DNA of 64,000 bases, taken from the NCBI RefSeq assembly GCF_900453105.1, contig NZ_UGPW01000001.1:2170001-2234000 (forward strand), read 5' to 3'. Source of the stretch: Moraxella ovis. GTDB taxonomy: Bacteria > Pseudomonadota > Gammaproteobacteria > Pseudomonadales > Moraxellaceae. Position numbers and translations under genes: made by a program. Under the pieces are notes generated by a model. That model searched no databases, was not told the origin of the DNA, and was given only the letters and a program-made list of their open reading frames with translations. Below, one piece after another: positions 19,920-61,607 of the stretch. Every line of letters starts with the position of its first letter. The stretch's first letter is position 1.

Positions 19920-20513
19920 ATGCAAACCCTATATATCAGCACCACATCGCCTTATACTCGTATGCTTCTTATGATTGCATACACCAAAAACATTGAGCTT
20001 GCCCTGCGGTTTGTTGTGCCGTGGGAGAACCCAAGCGAGCTTGTCGCCGTCAATTCATTTAGCCAAGTCCCTGCATTGGCGTGGCAAAATGGCGATACCA
20101 TCACCGAGACCCCGCTAATCATTCAGGCACTCGCACCCGATGTGTACACGGACAACCCTGCCTACAACCTGCCACGCATTGCCAAGGCGTTAGGCATTAC
20201 CGCACAAGGTGTGCGAGCCTATTCCACTCAAATTTTTGGCAAAGATACGCCCCACCCTTTTGTGGCACGCTCTACCGATATTTTGACCAGTGCCTTACCT
20301 GCCCTGCCTACGCTTTCGGCAGATAGCGATGAATGGGGCGATAAGCTTTTGCTTTGTTCGCTGATTTGGATTGGCATTCGCCTGCCCCATGTTTTTGAGA
20401 CACTAAGTGATGACAACAAAAAAGCGGTGTCGGAATTTAGCCAAACACCACTTATGCAAAAACTCACCACCGAAATGCTAGAAAATATGCCAAAAACGGT
20501 GCAGGATTTGTGA
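19920..20513 (+). CDS. Glutathione S-transferase-like protein
   Basis: 197-aa protein with an N-terminal thioredoxin-like GST domain: LYISTTSPYTRMLLMIAYTK at the active-site end, FSQVPALAW with the cis-Pro, and ITETPLIIQAL as the ETxxI glutathione contact. An alpha-helical C-terminal half follows. Catalytic Ser/Cys/Tyr is probably within STTSPYTR. AAGGA lies 7 bp before the ATG. Substrate unknown; likely detoxification. Confidence 0.8.
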   Translation: MQTLYISTTSPYTRMLLMIAYTKNIELALRFVVPWENPSELVAVNSFSQVPALAWQNGDTITETPLIIQALAPDVYTDNPAYNLPRIAKALGITAQGVRAYSTQIFGKDTPHPFVARSTDILTSALPALPTLSADSDEWGDKLLLCSLIWIGIRLPHVFETLSDDNKKAVSEFSQTPLMQKLTTEMLENMPKTVQDL

Positions 20514-20545
20514 TTTAAAGTTGTAATTTAAAGTTGTGATTTAAA

Positions 20546-53833: not shown

Positions 53834-54763
53834 ATGAGCAAAGTCCGCGCCAAAGAGCCTCGCACGCCCACCATCATCCATGTGATGGGCGATCCCGTCT
53901 ATCTGACCGAATTTCGCACAGCGATGCTGGCACGCGGTCTGTCGGTGCGCACGCGTAACGCCTACATCAGAGACCTAAGATTATGCATGGCGACCACCGA
54001 CAAGCCTTTGACGACTTGGGATAAAGCGGACGTGTATCACTGCCTAGAATCTGCCCAATCCCAAGGCAAAAATCCGCGCACCATCTCTAGAATGCTCGCC
54101 AGCCTGCGCCAGTTCTTCTTGTGGCAGATTGGCAATGAAGTGCGCCTTGACAACCCCTGTCAAGACATCAAGAACCCAAAAGTCACCAAGCCTCTACCCA
54201 AGACCTTATCCGAAGCCGACATCACGCGCCTACTAGACACGCCAAACGTCGCCGCCATGTGCGGACTGCGCGACAAAGCGATGCTTGAAGTCATGTACGC
54301 CTGCGGGCTGCGCGTGAGTGAGCTCGTGAATCTATCGCTAGAGCAGGTCAATCTCAACGCCGGCTGGCTACAGATCACCGGCAAAGGCAACAAGACTCGC
54401 CTTATCCCACTGGGTGAATACGCCCAAAACGCCCTACAAGACTATCTCATCAGACGCGGTGAACTGCTGTCAGGCAAGAGCGACTGTCAAGCGGTGTTCC
54501 TCACCGAACAAGGCGGCTACATGACGCGGCATAATTTTTGGCACATGATTAAAAAATACGCTCTACTGGCGGGTATCAAAACCGACATCTCACCGCACAC
54601 GCTTCGCCATGCTTTTGCCACGCACCTGCTCAACCACGGGGCGGATTTGCGTAGCGTTCAGCTTTTGCTCGGGCATAGCGACCTATCCACCACGCAGATT
54701 TATACCCACGTTGCCACGGCACGCTTACAGACGCTCCACGCTGAACATCATCCTAGAGGCTAA
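53834..54763 (+). CDS. xerD: Tyrosine recombinase XerD
   Basis: 309-aa site-specific recombinase for chromosome dimer resolution at dif. N-terminal SAM-like domain (LARGLSVRTRNAYIRDLRLC), catalytic Arg in YACGLRVSELVNLSLEQVN, GKGNKTRLIPL (Lys), HTLRHAFATHLLNHGADLRSVQLLLGH (His-x-x-Arg and His) and the Tyr nucleophile in STTQIYTHV. XerD rather than XerC is inferred from overall pattern. Its 3' end overlaps the restriction island by 11 bp. Confidence 0.88.
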   Translation: MSKVRAKEPRTPTIIHVMGDPVYLTEFRTAMLARGLSVRTRNAYIRDLRLCMATTDKPLTTWDKADVYHCLESAQSQGKNPRTISRMLASLRQFFLWQIGNEVRLDNPCQDIKNPKVTKPLPKTLSEADITRLLDTPNVAAMCGLRDKAMLEVMYACGLRVSELVNLSLEQVNLNAGWLQITGKGNKTRLIPLGEYAQNALQDYLIRRGELLSGKSDCQAVFLTEQGGYMTRHNFWHMIKKYALLAGIKTDISPHTLRHAFATHLLNHGADLRSVQLLLGHSDLSTTQIYTHVATARLQTLHAEHHPRG

Positions 54764-57236
54764 GGTATTTTCTCGGTACCACTGTGTTATAAAGCCCCAC
54801 ATACTCATCTTGCCTGTCAATCCCTGCGTATTCAAGACTGGCATCTTCATAGCGTTTAAAATGCCAAACGGCTTGATTCATCACGCTTTCGTCGAAGACA
54901 TTTAAAGACACCAATAGCGAAAAATCAACCTGTGATAAGCCCGTAACCTTAGTAAACAGCTCAGGCTCAAGCTCTTGAATGACATCTTGCAAATTATGCT
55001 CACGGTAATCGCTTAAATACATAAAAATCGGAATGCGAGTGGCAAACTTGATGAGTTTTTCTTGGATTTGCTTGCGCAAGGATTTTTCTTTTTTCTCTTC
55101 GTCCGTCAGTGTTTTCTTTTCTTCTTTGGTCAGCTCTTCTTCGCCTGCTTTTTTCTTCAAGCCTTTGACTTTTTCTGAACGATTAATGACCACTTCAATA
55201 TCATCATTAAGGCTTCTAAACTCTTCAATTTTCATCAAAGCGTCCATGGCATCTTGATTTTTCATCAGATTTTGCAAGGTAAAATCATCAACATTGACCA
55301 AAAGTGCCGACTGCCAACGGCGAGCCAGTAGCGTTGCCGTTGTGCCACTCATCGCCATATCAAGGAGTAGTTTTGCGTCCACTTGTTGCATTGCACTGCC
55401 GTCATAGGCAAGCACAGGCAAAAAGGCGATAAATTCAGATACTTTACTCTCAGGGTTGCCCTCGGCTGGGTTTAGTTTATGGGCATAATCAGCGATTTGG
55501 CGTAAGGCACGATTGGGAGCAAAATCAAAGATATAGCATTGATTTTTAATAATATTTATCCCATCATCACCACGCACCGTCCACGGAGTCTGCACCCGAA
55601 ATCCCGCCTGAAAATAAGTCTCAGGGCTGGCACAATTTCTTAGCATAAAAATCCCCGTCCACGCAGGCACGGAGACGCCCGTCATCAGCTTGCCACACGA
55701 CAGCGTAATGGATTTTGTCGCAAGTGGATTATTGCCAATCGCATTATTCACAGGAATTAACGCCCTATCGCCCATTCCTGCACTATTGCCTGCCGATACG
55801 ATAATATCATAATCGTGGTAAAATTTATTATTAGGGGCTTTTAATAAATTTGCCATTGCATAACAACTTGCCACGCTAGGCAAAAACCAAAGCGTATGTA
55901 ATAAACTGTTTAACAAATTCACATCGCTAAATGGCATTGGCGGTTTGGCATTGCCTTGTTTTAAATTGCTAACAATCATCTCATCAAGATTATCACGAAT
56001 TAAATCCAGCCATTTTTGCACATAATTTTCGTGTTTAAATTTAGCCGTTTCACCATTGCCATCTGCTTTAAAAAATTCGCCCAAATCAAATTCATTAAAT
56101 TCGCCTTGTGTGGCAATATGGCGAATATTTTCTGGCAATTGATAAGTTAATAACATCATTTGTGGCAATGACAAATAAGGATTATCGCCTTTTGTCTTAT
56201 CCCATTCTAATTTGGCTTTTTGTTCATCGCCATAAGTCCAATTAAAAATCTGCTCCTCTATAAATTCACCACTGGCAATCGCTCGAAATGGCGTACCTGA
56301 TAAATACAAATAATGCTCTGTGGTAATGGGCAATTCATTTTCATCAAAACTTTCTACCCCAATTTCCATTTCTTGATATTCATTTTGCATTTTTGCCAAT
56401 TCATCATCTTTGGCAAAAAGCGATTTGGCGTTATCACGCCACGCCCCAAAATGGTATTCATCAAATACCACACAATCCCAATTGATGCTATGTATCCATT
56501 CATTTTTCGCCTTAATGTTGCCATATTTATCCCTACCCAGCACATCTTGAAATGAACCAAAATACACCATTGGGCGATTTTTATCATAATCATCAATCGT
56601 CAAATCACTATCACGGCTGATAAATTGCCAACCATTAAAATCAATGTGGCTTGTCAAATCATCTTGCCACGCCATTTTTACCGCAGGCTTAAAGGTCAAA
56701 ATCAAAATACGTTGCCAATTCATCTTTTTGGCAAGCTGATAAGTGGCAAAAGTTTTACCAAATCGCATTTTGGCATTCCACAAAAAATGCGGTGTGCGGT
56801 TGTTATTTTTATCTTGTTTAATAGAATTAAAATAATAAGCGGTTTTATTCACAGCGTCCAATTGCTCTGGACGCATTTTAAAATCTTGTGTGCGTTGCCG
56901 TTCAAAAGTTTTGGCTTTCTTAATATTTAAAATGGCATTTTTGATAGTATCAATATTACATTCAAACCATTCGCCTGCAATGCGGTTAATACCCATTGTT
57001 TCTAGCATTTTATGCACGGCAAAATCTTTAAAATAACTGCCGTCATCTTTAATCGCCAAAATCTCAAATTCTAGTTTCCAACTTTGGCTTGGCGTAACGG
57101 TTGGATAATGCTGTTTCATTCGCTGGCTTACCGTTTCTTGGGCGGTATAGCCGACTTTTAGGGCGTTGGGATAACGGCTGTCGGAATAGACATAGATTTT
57201 TGGTGTGTGGATTTGGGTAAAGGTTGGGTTGGTCAT
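54753..57236 (-). CDS. GIY-YIG (T5orf172-like) plus SF2 helicase restriction protein
   Basis: 827 aa. Residues 10-105 resemble T5orf172/GIY-YIG nuclease domains: KIYVYSDSRYPNALKVGYT, QRMKQHYP and GEWFECNIDTI. Then an SF2 helicase/translocase: Walker A NAKMRFGKTFATYQLAKK, motif II VVFDEYHFG, motif III YLSGTPFRA, and motif VI QAGFRVQTPW. A lysine/glutamate-rich stretch lies near residues 690-730. It is the last gene of the operon. Probably the ATP-dependent cutting subunit of the system. It overlaps the FRG gene by 4 bp. Confidence 0.8.
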   Translation of the reverse strand: MTNPTFTQIHTPKIYVYSDSRYPNALKVGYTAQETVSQRMKQHYPTVTPSQSWKLEFEILAIKDDGSYFKDFAVHKMLETMGINRIAGEWFECNIDTIKNAILNIKKAKTFERQRTQDFKMRPEQLDAVNKTAYYFNSIKQDKNNNRTPHFLWNAKMRFGKTFATYQLAKKMNWQRILILTFKPAVKMAWQDDLTSHIDFNGWQFISRDSDLTIDDYDKNRPMVYFGSFQDVLGRDKYGNIKAKNEWIHSINWDCVVFDEYHFGAWRDNAKSLFAKDDELAKMQNEYQEMEIGVESFDENELPITTEHYLYLSGTPFRAIASGEFIEEQIFNWTYGDEQKAKLEWDKTKGDNPYLSLPQMMLLTYQLPENIRHIATQGEFNEFDLGEFFKADGNGETAKFKHENYVQKWLDLIRDNLDEMIVSNLKQGNAKPPMPFSDVNLLNSLLHTLWFLPSVASCYAMANLLKAPNNKFYHDYDIIVSAGNSAGMGDRALIPVNNAIGNNPLATKSITLSCGKLMTGVSVPAWTGIFMLRNCASPETYFQAGFRVQTPWTVRGDDGINIIKNQCYIFDFAPNRALRQIADYAHKLNPAEGNPESKVSEFIAFLPVLAYDGSAMQQVDAKLLLDMAMSGTTATLLARRWQSALLVNVDDFTLQNLMKNQDAMDALMKIEEFRSLNDDIEVVINRSEKVKGLKKKAGEEELTKEEKKTLTDEEKKEKSLRKQIQEKLIKFATRIPIFMYLSDYREHNLQDVIQELEPELFTKVTGLSQVDFSLLVSLNVFDESVMNQAVWHFKRYEDASLEYAGIDRQDEYVGLYNTVVPRKYLSL

Positions 57237-58285
57237 TTTGAGTTGTCCTTGTAGCGATTGATAATATGAGCGGATTGTTTATCCAATTCTGGGAATAAGG
57301 TTTGATGTCTAATACCAAAATATGCCAACTCTCTTAGAATATTGTTCTTACTGTCAGCATCAATAATAAACTTTGCCCTAACCCACTTTGGATTAACATC
57401 AGCTTGATTACTTTTATTATTTTGAATGCCAAAAATTAAAAACGCTCCGTGTTGCTTGGCAATTCTTGGATTGTTTAATTTTGGCTTGACACAAATAACT
57501 TTTTCTAAATCATTTGAGTTAATAATTGGCATAAAGTAAGACTTATCTTTACGAATATCATTTAATAATCTCATTATTTGTTCTTGCTGATTAAATGTTT
57601 CAAGAAATTTTTTATTGTATTCTCTATTTGATAAATGACTTAGTAAATCTTTTGGACTGGAAAAACCAAGCCTTAACATTTCATCTTTTATCTCAATATT
57701 AAACTCATTATTTTGATAAGTTGATTTTGAATTAAACTCTTTTACCATATAAAATGTTTGTGCAATTTTTGCTTGCTGGTCAGAAAAGGAAATAATTTCC
57801 TCTAAATCAAAACTTTCATCTCTTAAACTTAAAGCTGATAAAATAGCAACCGTATCACTATCGTGATGTTTTATTTCATCATTAGGAATATCAAAAACAA
57901 TCACCTCTCCGTCATTTTTGTCTTTTAATTCATCTTTTGAATTGGAAATGGCAAAATATAAACCAACCAACGCATTATAAGAAATATCTAATAATCGTGT
58001 TGGATAATCATAATGTTGCATTTTTACCAATTTATCAAAAAGTGTATCGTGTGGCGAAAAGTATTCGGCACATTCAGTTAAAACATCTTTGACAATACGA
58101 TGTTCGTTTTGAATATGCTCTTGCTTTCCAGTATTTTTGTCTTTTCTATAAATGCTTGACTCTAACAAATATTCTTTGTTAGAATGCCCACGAAAAAATC
58201 GTGATTTATCTCTATCACATTCCCCTAACTCTGATAAAGCACTGACAAAATCTGCAACACTTTCAATTCTAATCGCATTACTCAT
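57233..58285 (-). CDS. FRG-domain protein inside the R-M operon
   Basis: 350 aa from ATG 58285 (MSNAIRIESVADFVSALSEL); GGAG lies 7 bp upstream. FRG domain: FFRGHSNKEYLLESSIYR near residue 30 and MQHYDYPTRLLDISYNALVGLYFAIS near residue 95. FRG domains occur often beside defence genes, but the biochemical activity is not settled. It overlaps both neighbours (methylase by 8 bp, helicase by 4 bp), so it is made with them. It may be a toxin or sensor guarding the restriction system. Strongly AT-rich. Confidence 0.8.
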   Translation of the reverse strand: MSNAIRIESVADFVSALSELGECDRDKSRFFRGHSNKEYLLESSIYRKDKNTGKQEHIQNEHRIVKDVLTECAEYFSPHDTLFDKLVKMQHYDYPTRLLDISYNALVGLYFAISNSKDELKDKNDGEVIVFDIPNDEIKHHDSDTVAILSALSLRDESFDLEEIISFSDQQAKIAQTFYMVKEFNSKSTYQNNEFNIEIKDEMLRLGFSSPKDLLSHLSNREYNKKFLETFNQQEQIMRLLNDIRKDKSYFMPIINSNDLEKVICVKPKLNNPRIAKQHGAFLIFGIQNNKSNQADVNPKWVRAKFIIDADSKNNILRELAYFGIRHQTLFPELDKQSAHIINRYKDNSK

Positions 58286-60017
58286 CATCACTCTCCAAAT
58301 CCAACTCTGATTGCGTGGTCTTTTTACCACGAGATTTTTTAGGTTTTTCGCCTGTATCGTTATCCATTGAACTTATTGTATTTTCAATTAAATTAATTTC
58401 ATCTTTTGACAACCCATATTTCAAATACAGTTTTTCATCAGACCAACTCTCATAAAAATTTTGCAAAGGCACGAATTGATAAACGCCCCTTGCACCATTT
58501 TGGGTTTTTTTCTTAATGCTTACTAAATATCTAAAAAATTTGGTTTGAATATAAGAAATGATATTTTCGCATTGCTCTTTTGTTAAAAAATGCTTTTTAG
58601 GGTCATAACCAATAACAAGATAAGTTTGCGAACATACACTATTAGGTTCTCCATAAAAAGGTTTTCCCAAAATTAGATTATTAGAACCATTGGCGGCTGG
58701 AATATAAACTTTATGTAAATCTTTGCTTGCCAAATTCTTTGGAATTTGTGTTTGACTTACCCAGCCAAATCCAACCGATGAGACATTTTTATTTAGATAA
58801 TATTTGATATTAAAATCATCTGTTGGCGATTTTTTAAATCCTTTCCACTTTGAAGTTAAAAACTCTTTATTGGTAAAAAAGTCTTTTGGGCTAACTAATG
58901 ATGAAAAGTTATTTTCTTCTTCCAAAAAATAATCTTTATGAATTTTTTTAATTTTATCAATAATTTTAAAAGAATTAGGGTCTCTAATAACAACACCTAT
59001 TTTATTGGCATCTAATAAATCAAATCTGCTCAAAACATTTCCGCTTGTTGTGTGATAATTGTATTCACATTTACCATTATAATTACCGTCCCATAAAAAA
59101 TAGTTTACACCACCTTCAATAGGCTGTGCCAAATTTGGAAAACACTCTTTTGAGCTTTCAAAATCATGTATCACTTTAAATTTTGTAGAATTTAATATAC
59201 CATCAATCCATTCTGGCGGAATACCTTCCACACTTCGTGTCATCCATCTGCTTGGTGTAATCATAACCAAATATTTAGGATTTAATTTTATTGCCTGCTC
59301 TATAAAAAGATGATAAATTGCTTTTGCCTTAGAACTATTACCGCCATCATTACCAATATTTAATTGATAAGGCGGATTGCCAATAATCACATCAAATTTC
59401 ATTTTTAAAATCTCTTTAAATTCATTGTCTTTATCGCTATGAATAAACGCATAAGCGTGGTTTTCTAAGCCTTGTCGATTACCAAAAACTTCTTGGCTTG
59501 CTCCACATTCTGTGCATTTGCCATTGTCAAATTGATGATTGACATTGCCAAAAATAATATTGCCACTTTCATTATCAAATTCATCACAGATAGAAAATGG
59601 CGAATTGGCAACTTTGGCACAATACACACTACGGCGGGATAATAGGGCGGTAAGTTGGGTAATAGCAATACCAAAAACTTGATGTTTTAGAATGTGGTTA
59701 ATGCGGGTTTGTTTATCGGGTATTTGACTTGCCAAACCTTTATCCAAGCGTTTGACAATCTCTCGCAGGAACACGCCCGATTTGCACACAGGGTCTAAAA
59801 ATCTGGCATTGGGATTTTGCCAAATGTCGCTTGGCAATAAATCCAGCATTTGGTTGGCTAGTTTTGGCGATGTAAATACCTCATCATTGGATAGACTGGA
59901 TAAACAATCCAAAACATCAGGATTGTAGGCTTGCTCAAATAGCGATAATTGACCTTGATTAAGAACGTCTAGGTCTTTTGTGATGTTACTGTTTATTTGC
60001 AAGTTTAAATTGTCCAT
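58278..60017 (-). CDS. Eco57I-type N6-adenine DNA methyltransferase
   Basis: 579 aa. LSNDEVFTSPKLANQMLDLLP then motif I FLDPVCKSGVFLREIVKRLDKG (near residue 72), a CTECG zinc-ribbon-like spot with a possible second pair, motif IV FDVIIGNPPYQLN (near residue 210), and a C-terminal half that would hold target recognition. The tail is acidic and lysine-rich. Motif I reads DPVCKSG rather than DPACGSG, a known variant in this family. It is separated from the short upstream MTase-like gene by 1 bp. Confidence 0.85.
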   Translation of the reverse strand: MDNLNLQINSNITKDLDVLNQGQLSLFEQAYNPDVLDCLSSLSNDEVFTSPKLANQMLDLLPSDIWQNPNARFLDPVCKSGVFLREIVKRLDKGLASQIPDKQTRINHILKHQVFGIAITQLTALLSRRSVYCAKVANSPFSICDEFDNESGNIIFGNVNHQFDNGKCTECGASQEVFGNRQGLENHAYAFIHSDKDNEFKEILKMKFDVIIGNPPYQLNIGNDGGNSSKAKAIYHLFIEQAIKLNPKYLVMITPSRWMTRSVEGIPPEWIDGILNSTKFKVIHDFESSKECFPNLAQPIEGGVNYFLWDGNYNGKCEYNYHTTSGNVLSRFDLLDANKIGVVIRDPNSFKIIDKIKKIHKDYFLEEENNFSSLVSPKDFFTNKEFLTSKWKGFKKSPTDDFNIKYYLNKNVSSVGFGWVSQTQIPKNLASKDLHKVYIPAANGSNNLILGKPFYGEPNSVCSQTYLVIGYDPKKHFLTKEQCENIISYIQTKFFRYLVSIKKKTQNGARGVYQFVPLQNFYESWSDEKLYLKYGLSKDEINLIENTISSMDNDTGEKPKKSRGKKTTQSELDLESDDE

Positions 60018-60018
60018 T

Positions 60019-60660
60019 TTATTGCTCGCTTAATTTTAGATAATGAATGGGCGGATAATCTTGGATATTTTTGGGAATAAATCCTTGATTGTCGGTTAAT
60101 TGATTATTGGTTTTTTCTACCAAATGCTCATAAATATAATCACGCCTTTGAATGATCGTGTCGCTGATGAACTTCCATTCGCTAAATAGAATCGGATTAT
60201 CATTTAAATCTTTTAAGGTTAGGGCATTGCCATTGACAATATTTTTTGACAACAAAAACTCTGCCGTTTGAATAACAGCAGAGTTAATTTTTTTAAAATG
60301 GCTTTGATAATGGTCTAGAAATAAACCCAATAATCGGCTACGGCATTCGGTGCAATTATCCGATAATAGCTCAATGCCATAAATGCTGGATATGGCATGA
60401 ATGGCGTGCTTTTCGTAATGAAATTGGGAATATTTGGGGGATTTTTGGCTTTTGTTGATTTGGGATAATTTTAGGGAGGTTGTCAGTTTTCGGCTTAAAA
60501 TTTCCGCCAAAAAATTGCCCGTGCCACACGCAGGCTCCAAAAAGGTGCTGGCGATTTGTTCGGATTGGGCTTTGACCAAATCCAGCATTGCCTTAACTTC
60601 ACGCTCAGCGGTAAATACTTCGCCGTGGTCGGCAACACGCTGACGAGATTTAACCTGCAT
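60019..60660 (-). CDS. Short SAM-methyltransferase-like protein, first gene of the R-M operon
   Basis: 213 aa: MQVKSRQRVADHGEVFTAEREVKAMLDLVK and a clean motif I FLEPACGTGNFLAEIL (residues 41-56), then SSIYGIELLSDNCTECRSRLLGL. No NPPY motif, so it cannot be a complete adenine methylase. Small leading partners of this sort precede Eco57I-like methylases in related loci. AAGGGG lies about 9 bp before the ATG. An in-frame TAG at 60679-60681 rules out a longer ORF through the octamer repeat. Confidence 0.78.
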   Translation of the reverse strand: MQVKSRQRVADHGEVFTAEREVKAMLDLVKAQSEQIASTFLEPACGTGNFLAEILSRKLTTSLKLSQINKSQKSPKYSQFHYEKHAIHAISSIYGIELLSDNCTECRSRLLGLFLDHYQSHFKKINSAVIQTAEFLLSKNIVNGNALTLKDLNDNPILFSEWKFISDTIIQRRDYIYEHLVEKTNNQLTDNQGFIPKNIQDYPPIHYLKLSEQ

Positions 60661-60740
60661 GGGATTGCCCCTTGCAAGCTAGTGGATGATAGGATTTAGA
60701 ATAAGAAAAAGAAGTGGAATATCGGGCGGAAGTTAGGCTA

Positions 60741-60836
60741 GCAGGTACGCAGGTACGCAGGTACGCAGGTACGCAGGTACGCAGGTACGCAGGTACGCAG
60801 GTACGCAGGTACGCAGGTACGCAGGTACGCAGGTAC
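60741..60836. repeat. Octanucleotide tandem repeat (GCAGGTAC)12
   Basis: Twelve perfect copies of GCAGGTAC followed by a partial GCA. The tract starts 81 bp upstream of the first restriction-operon gene (minus) and ends 166 bp before the methyltransferase gene at 61002 (plus). It is intergenic. The rest of the 341-bp gap (60661-61001) holds no gene. Repeat-number change would alter promoter or leader length. Confidence 0.95.
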
Positions 60837-61001
60837 GCATTATAGCGCGCTTGAGAATTTCGTCAATAAAATACATAACAAAACCGAGTAAATATTTATG
60901 AAAATTCTATCATATAGCGCTTATTTTCTAAAGTAAAATAAATAGGTTTTATGGCGTATGGCTTTTTGTTACAATAATCAAAACTTTTTTGGAAAAACAT
61001 C

Positions 61002-61607
61002 ATGACCACCACCCTAGCCGACCTTCAAAATAAAGCCAAACAATGGCGACAAGACATCACATTTACCCAAGACGTGCTTGGCAAGCCCTTTACCTTTCAC
61101 ACCACTTGGGGGATTTTTAGCCCAGAACGTCTTGATGACGGCAGCCTCATGCTCCTTGATTATATTGATTTTAAGGCTCATGATAATTCCATAGACCTAG
61201 GCTGTGGCTATGGCGTGCTGGGCATGACGGCGGCTCGCGAATGCCCCAATGGTCAGCACATCCTGATCGACAAGGACTTCGTCGCGGTAGAATACGCCCG
61301 CTTAAATTGCCAAAAAAACGGGCTGACTAATACCCACGTTCAACTCTCCAACGGCTTTTATCACGTGGATAAAGACAAAAAATTCAGCCTTGTCATGAGT
61401 AACCTACCTGCCAAGGCAAGTAAAGAACAGCATTATCTGTATCTGCTAGACGCTTATGAACGCATGGAAGCGGGCGGACGGTTTTATGTGGTTACCATTA
61501 ACGGACTGCGTGATTTTATGAAACGCTCATTTAATGAAGTGTTTGGCAATGCCGACAAAATCAAACAAGGCAAAACTTATACGGTGACGCTTGCGGTGAA
61601 GGAATAG
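61002..61607 (+). CDS. MTS-type class I methyltransferase (RsmC-like)
   Basis: 201 aa. Motif I IDLGCGYGVLGMTAA and the NPPxF-like site as MSNLPAKASKEQH (SNLPAK). This is the C-terminal MTS domain of RsmC/RlmG-type enzymes that methylate guanine N2 in rRNA; RsmC of E. coli is about 340 aa, so this is a single-domain form. An earlier TTTTTGTTACAATAA stretch may hold its -10. Confidence 0.85.
   Translation: MTTTLADLQNKAKQWRQDITFTQDVLGKPFTFHTTWGIFSPERLDDGSLMLLDYIDFKAHDNSIDLGCGYGVLGMTAARECPNGQHILIDKDFVAVEYARLNCQKNGLTNTHVQLSNGFYHVDKDKKFSLVMSNLPAKASKEQHYLYLLDAYERMEAGGRFYVVTINGLRDFMKRSFNEVFGNADKIKQGKTYTVTLAVKE

Follow-up and report, generated by a model that had tools for sequence, protein, structure and literature searches.

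A 64,000-nucleotide window of the Moraxella ovis genome (the whole stretch of DNA analysed here) carries a perfect octamer array, (GCAGGTAC)12, beside a minus-strand operon of restriction-modification (R-M) genes, and this array is very probably a phase-variation element of the operon. The best explanation, which we consider probable, is a phase-variable leader open reading frame (ORF) that precedes the operon and is translationally coupled to it. Read on the operon strand as (GTACCTGC)12, the array occupies 60741-60839 with a period of 8, 12.4 copies and 100% matches in Tandem Repeats Finder (TRF), which bears out the perfect twelve-copy octamer reported in an initial annotation of the sequence. 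All 11 copies of the doubled unit (a 16-mer) that the window contains lie within the array, whereas 100 shuffled sequences have none; the 16-mer is absent from the rest of the 2.32-Mb genome, where the array is found once. A plasmid contig of this genome has a 99.7% match to a Moraxella ovis plasmid over 92% of an 8-kb query, which points to a bovine-type Moraxella as host. A plus-strand methyltransferase-like gene (61002-61607) lies on one side of the array and the operon on the other, with a spacer of 80 nucleotides (nt) between the array and the ATG (60660) of ORF1, the first gene of the operon; the span originally singled out, 60661-60860, comprises array and spacer. Feature coordinates are collected in Table 1.

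Table 1. Features of the array, leader and operon region (positions within the window).
Feature	Position	Strand	Details
Tandem array (GTACCTGC)12	60741..60839	-	TRF, shuffle control, genome search
Leader ORF at n = 12, predicted OFF phase	60733..60876	-	47 codons; ATG 60876, in-frame second ATG 60840, TAA 60735-60733; putative starts
Two stops right behind the array, closing the other two exit frames	60733..60740	-	TAG 60740-60738, TAA 60735-60733
TAA ending the read-through frame	60650..60652	-	8 nt past the A of the ORF1 ATG; reached by the leader at n = 2 mod 3
Predicted RNA hairpin holding the ORF1 Shine-Dalgarno AAGGGG (60668-60673) and ATG (60658-60660)	60651..60681	-	-16.4 kcal/mol, z -3.6
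Promoter-like TTGACG-16-TATAAT, abutting the array with one base shared	60839..60866	-	11/12 matches, best site; consensus match only
Promoter-like TTTAGA-17-TAGAAT with TG, upstream of leader ATG 60876	60904..60932	-	9/12 matches; consensus match only
ORF1, short DNA-methyltransferase-like subunit	60019..60660	-	213 amino acids (aa); Pfam MmeI_Mtase 26.6 bits, slightly below the cut-off of 27; PADLOC MTase_II
ORF2, Eco57I-type adenine methylase	58278..60017	-	579 aa; PF07669, E 6e-32
ORF3, FRG domain protein	57233..58330	-	365 aa; PF08867, E 3e-18; PADLOC candidate PDC-S15
ORF4, T5orf172 domain and N-terminal part of a Type IIG model	54753..57236	-	827 aa; PF10544; PADLOC PDLC03626, positions 131-822 of 1359

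The array contains no stop codon in any frame of the operon strand, and the two leader ATGs share one frame and both lead into it. With the repeat number n = 12 of the window, the leader exits to TAA 60735-60733, whereas at other n it meets TAG 60740-60738 or enters a read-through frame. Specifically, at n = 0 or 1 mod 3 the leader ends no later than 8 nt past the array, and at n = 2 mod 3 its exit frame is open over the whole spacer and past the ORF1 ATG, ending 8 nt into ORF1. In one phase, then, the leader stop falls close to the downstream start (+8), and the window array is predicted to be in an OFF phase. The frame of ORF1 itself is shut in every phase by TAG 60681-60679. This stop had been taken to block translation through the array, and slippage to leave reading frames untouched; both statements are correct for a methyltransferase fused directly to the array, but not for the leader, whose frame changes with n and for which another frame is open from before the array to beyond the ORF1 ATG. 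An in-frame fusion of array and ORF1 is excluded by the same TAG, barring readthrough or frameshifting, and classic phase variation, in which the methyltransferase ORF itself contains the array in its 5′ part, is extremely unlikely for the window on this account. It does describe L114 (Rodentibacter) and also L119, two homologous loci in which the ORF1 homolog lacks an ATG of its own and the gene frame is open through a (GCAAC) array; these appear, from their sequences, to use classic in-ORF phase variation.

The ORF1 start is predicted to be hidden in RNA structure, as its Shine-Dalgarno sequence and ATG both lie in a hairpin for which none of 200 shuffles gave an equally good fold. Folds at the ORF1 start of related loci reached z values of -4.2 (Bco_11), -5.3 (G067), -3.4 (Muribacter), -5.5 (a Pasteurellaceae metagenome-assembled genome, MAG) and -4.1 (G333), with a weaker -2.0 in G322 and -3.1 in L114, where the ORF1 ATG is missing. 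Within the inner stem, the Shine-Dalgarno pairs with varying complements, and the pairing register shifts between loci. With the register fixed, pairing is seen in 95.8% of 72 cells, against a maximum of 44% after sliding, but there is only one double change, a number that 87 of 500 shuffles reached; given the shifting inner stem, this count speaks neither for nor against covariation.

In translation attenuation and coupling, as in erm leaders and overlapping genes, ribosomes on a leader open a hairpin over the next start, and stop and start lie close together. Those systems react to a drug or fix a ratio, whereas in the window slippage would set the leader frame. In this reading, a short leader ORF stands ahead of the R-M operon and the array is its variable segment, and a slip of one 8-bp unit would make ribosomes exit the array in another frame. 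At n = 0 or 1 mod 3, leader ribosomes would stop no more than 8 nt past the array, the hairpin would stay shut and ORF1 would be OFF. At n = 2 mod 3, they would traverse the hairpin and stop 8 nt inside ORF1, opening its start site, at which translation would start or restart (ON). The downstream genes, which abut or overlap, would follow the state of ORF1, and transcriptional effects exerted through the untranslated spacer may add to the frame switch. From the sequence, we infer transcription and translation of the leader, opening of the hairpin, a change in R-M expression and, potentially, a phasevarion.

The same layout recurs in relatives. ORF1 homologs were surveyed in 22 genomes of the genus, in the best 80 of 444 wider loci and in 140 Pasteurellaceae genomes, and were found in 9 of the genus genomes, in R. 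israeli and others among those best 80 loci, and in 25 of the Pasteurellaceae genomes (26 matches). Fourteen loci carry an upstream array with units of 4, 5, 7 or 8 bp: six of the nine genus loci, that of R. israeli and seven of the 26 Pasteurellaceae matches. Among them, L118 has only 3.4 copies and L119 begins at a contig end, while one array-free genus locus, that of M. oblonga, offers just 140 nt upstream. No upstream repeat of the sought kind was present in the 18 more divergent Pasteurellaceae matches (L120-L137) or in L117. When the best 80 of 444 loci were examined for repeats of period 4-10, seven showed at least 3 copies no more than 300 nt upstream; six belong to Moraxellaceae or Pasteurellaceae, and the seventh is a trivial (CCGG)3.

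Twelve array loci have an ORF1 that starts with its own ATG; they span two families and 4-, 7- and 8-bp units, and in all of them one frame other than that of the gene crosses the spacer, ending at +8 (seven loci), at +1 as ATGA (four) or at +5 (one). The joint pattern of one spanning frame and two early stops was observed in 11 of 12 loci against 1.1 of 12 expected from shuffled spacers, in a set that omits Bco_11 as a near copy and includes the methyltransferase gene modO; the sole miss is G067, in which one early stop straddles the array end. With loci taken as independent, the probability of the joint pattern is ~1e-11 (1.35e-9 for eight representatives) and that of the open frame alone 1.4e-5 (3.8e-4 for eight representatives), although these values are rough, with thresholds set after the pattern was seen and some loci being related. 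It is also conceivable that the array varies without regulatory effect, the open frame and hairpin being coincidental or serving another purpose; the recurrence of the layout with different units in two families, together with long perfect arrays at 14 homologous loci, makes this very unlikely. Amino-acid conservation of the leader tail was considered as proof of coding and dropped, since codon-position bias is weak among the four type-B loci (G063 and VT16 differ at 19, 18 and 25 sites by codon position, and other pairs do no better).

Repeat number differs among close relatives, at 12 in the window, 11 implied by protein P0121 and 6 in the MAG Bco_11. P0121, a 60-aa sequence retrieved by a protein search with the window leader and known from its protein sequence, equals letter for letter the leader from ATG 60840 minus one unit, and implies a genome with n = 11, for which read-through is predicted. 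Five proteins were retrieved when the read-through frame of M. catarrhalis served as query, including the annotated P0127 of M. canis and P0129 (24 members) and P0130, both of M. catarrhalis; all have an M start, a repeat-encoded stretch and an end like that of the L023 or L020 read-through frames, and, having been searched for in that frame, they show that such alleles exist rather than how frequent they are. For a locus that is very probably the M. catarrhalis ortholog of the ORF1 locus in the window, a survey of five strains gives repeat numbers of 5, 28, 2, 12 and 11 (PMC7302503). The same source describes M. catarrhalis RS08500, a 'restriction endonuclease subunit M' with upstream GCGTCAA repeats; in the excerpted part, it is set aside as a truncated ORF with no mechanism proposed and no expression measured (PMC7302503). 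These numbers agree with the expectation that repeats of this kind slip. With a long perfect repeat tract whose copy number differs between relatives, the locus is, by its anatomy and copy-number variation, classed as a phase-variable R-M locus. The initial annotation was likely right that the array phase-varies the operon, but the route through promoter elements is not supported.

Three promoter-like sites occur in 60500-61100, all on the operon strand and upstream of the array (60937-60839). Slippage had been proposed to move promoter elements; n cannot alter the internal spacing of these promoters because all three lie on one side of the array, and for the sites found a promoter-spacing model is ruled out. 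The best of them, which abuts the array, has counterparts in L023 and G067 (11/12 matches each) and L104 (10/12), and it raises the main rival explanation, an effect of 5′ untranslated region (UTR) length like that of HMW1A. Transcription would start at the array-abutting TATAAT, the array would form the 5′ end of the mRNA, and n would grade mRNA amount or stability irrespective of frame. In H. influenzae hmw1A/hmw2A, heptamer repeats touch the -10 box (that of P2 in HMW1A), as the window array touches a putative one, and lie in the 5′ part of the transcript, the 5′UTR, as the window array would under this rival, with expression falling gradually as repeats are added; unlike the window, these are adhesin genes, and the excerpted text describes no coupled leader (PMC8262952). 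This rival would gain if the array-abutting promoter were the only one, as no leader ATG would then be transcribed. We nevertheless consider it rather unlikely, as it accounts neither for the hairpin and the open frame that ends where the gene begins, nor for the pair of stops that follows the array and the Shine-Dalgarno of 5-6 nt that precedes the leader ATG in six of 13 loci. In addition, the best promoter match in Muribacter, TTGATA-17-TAGAAT, lies upstream of the Shine-Dalgarno and ATG that precede the array.

Several observations nonetheless weigh against the coupled leader. Neither leader ATG in the window has a Shine-Dalgarno longer than 3 nt, and a transcript from TTGACG-16-TATAAT would carry neither; this missing Shine-Dalgarno, together with the array-abutting promoter-like site, is the weakest point of the model. 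Furthermore, 13 fetched loci have a leader ATG (modO and 12 of the 14 loci with arrays), and a single one of them, L107, shows the read-through phase. If one in three were expected, one or none would be seen in ~4% of cases (hand calculation); therefore either the OFF state is in excess or the leader start has been wrongly assigned at some loci.

The coupled-leader frame switch might alternatively act mainly on transcription, if the untranslated spacer stopped RNA polymerase, through an intrinsic terminator or Rho, and leader translation prevented this. Terminator-like spacer hairpins are present in loci of the other leader type, namely those of M. catarrhalis (L023), L104 and also G067. Sites of Rho action tend to be C+T-rich and G-poor, and the first 62 nt of the window spacer have such a composition (C 0.32, T 0.39, G 0.06). 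Changes at modO and other loci were measured as mRNA (PMC7302503). However, no terminator-like site was found in 60500-61100 of the window, and the start-site hairpin requires no transcriptional effect. We regard transcription as the main output as unlikely, although it may operate together with the coupled leader.

The closest published parallel is modO, for which mRNA levels of 1.00, 20.66 and 1.75 are given at n = 9, 10 and 11 of an upstream (CAACG)n (PMC7302503; PMC6241649). Like the window, it has a methyltransferase gene with the array in an upstream leader ORF. The modO leader in the sequence examined here has AAGGA and an ATG, and one exit frame ends in ATGA at the gene, the frames having been read without the flanks of strain 23246 and the ON class not matched to the published n = 10. 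In modM and modN, slippage in a methyltransferase system also alters a reading frame, but the repeat is inside the gene rather than in a separate leader ORF ending in the gene's first codons (PMC6241649). The common view holds that repeats within ORFs are translational switches and upstream repeats transcriptional ones, and modO is so interpreted (PMC6241649). We see about an even chance that these loci instead belong to a conserved class of switch in Moraxellaceae and Pasteurellaceae, in which a repeat within a small leader ORF opens a locked start or blocks a terminator in one of three phases, the unit being freely exchanged (4, 5, 7 or 8 bp) with the frame logic kept; the class would include modO and other 'upstream' repeats read as transcriptional. 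If so, ON and OFF would be predictable from sequence, through repeat number mod 3 and flanks, overlooked phase-variable R-M systems could be found, and the one-in-three pattern published for modO would gain a mechanism. Such a leader-repeat mechanism was not described in the titles or abstract openings found in the open-licence PMC literature. H. influenzae lex2A/lex2B may be another case in which a short upstream gene contains or consists of a repeat; published text calls lex2A a glucosyltransferase gene. The same may hold for the (CAAG)32 of H. influenzae F3031, which precedes an adenine methylase by 58 bp (PMC2651432).

The operon consists of four R-M-like genes whose adjacent ORFs overlap or lie 1 nt apart. 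Both halves of PDLC03626 (Type IIG, 1359 aa) are present, in ORF4 (131-822) and ORF2 (863-1356), so that the operon matches a Type IIG-like layout apparently split over two genes; an NCBIfam search of the operon proteins gave weak matches only. Homologs of ORF1 and ORF2 co-occur in 10 of 10 compared loci and an ORF4 homolog in 8; the remaining two sequences are short, at 3.0 and 5.6 kb, and break off inside ORF2. ORF1 is probably not the remnant of a longer gene, since its homologs among the best 120 of 8000 scored candidates are 163-242 aa long. The N-terminal parts of ORF1 and ORF2 are alike, with a 42% match between residues 14-57 of ORF1 and the beginning of ORF2 in L020 and L023, as if the two methylase subunits had arisen by duplication. 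The FRG gene (ORF3, 57233-58330) has tblastn matches in L021 (in part) and L024 and none in L022, L023, L044, L051 or L088; it looks like an accessory gene between ORF2 and ORF4 because these five loci keep both.

Further observations concern the leader and its repeats. L106 (G067) combines the octamer array of the window and a comparable leader with an ORF1 that is just 53% identical, as if leader and enzyme genes had been exchanged independently. In L117 (G237), a leader-like ORF has an ATG and a Shine-Dalgarno-like AGGA but no repeat, and no ATG was found for the ORF1 homolog of this locus; it may be a locus that lost its array. Another gene of G063 contains a (CAACG) array of ~11 copies (L142, G063:C19:10815-10864), of which one phase opens a longer ORF; it is preceded by the start MLDILKKVATM, which resembles the start of the window leader, MYFIDEILKRAIM. 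Elsewhere in the window, weak tandem repeats occur within ORF2 (58930-58969, 18-bp unit, 2.2 copies) and at 20508-20545 (13-bp unit, 2.9 copies).
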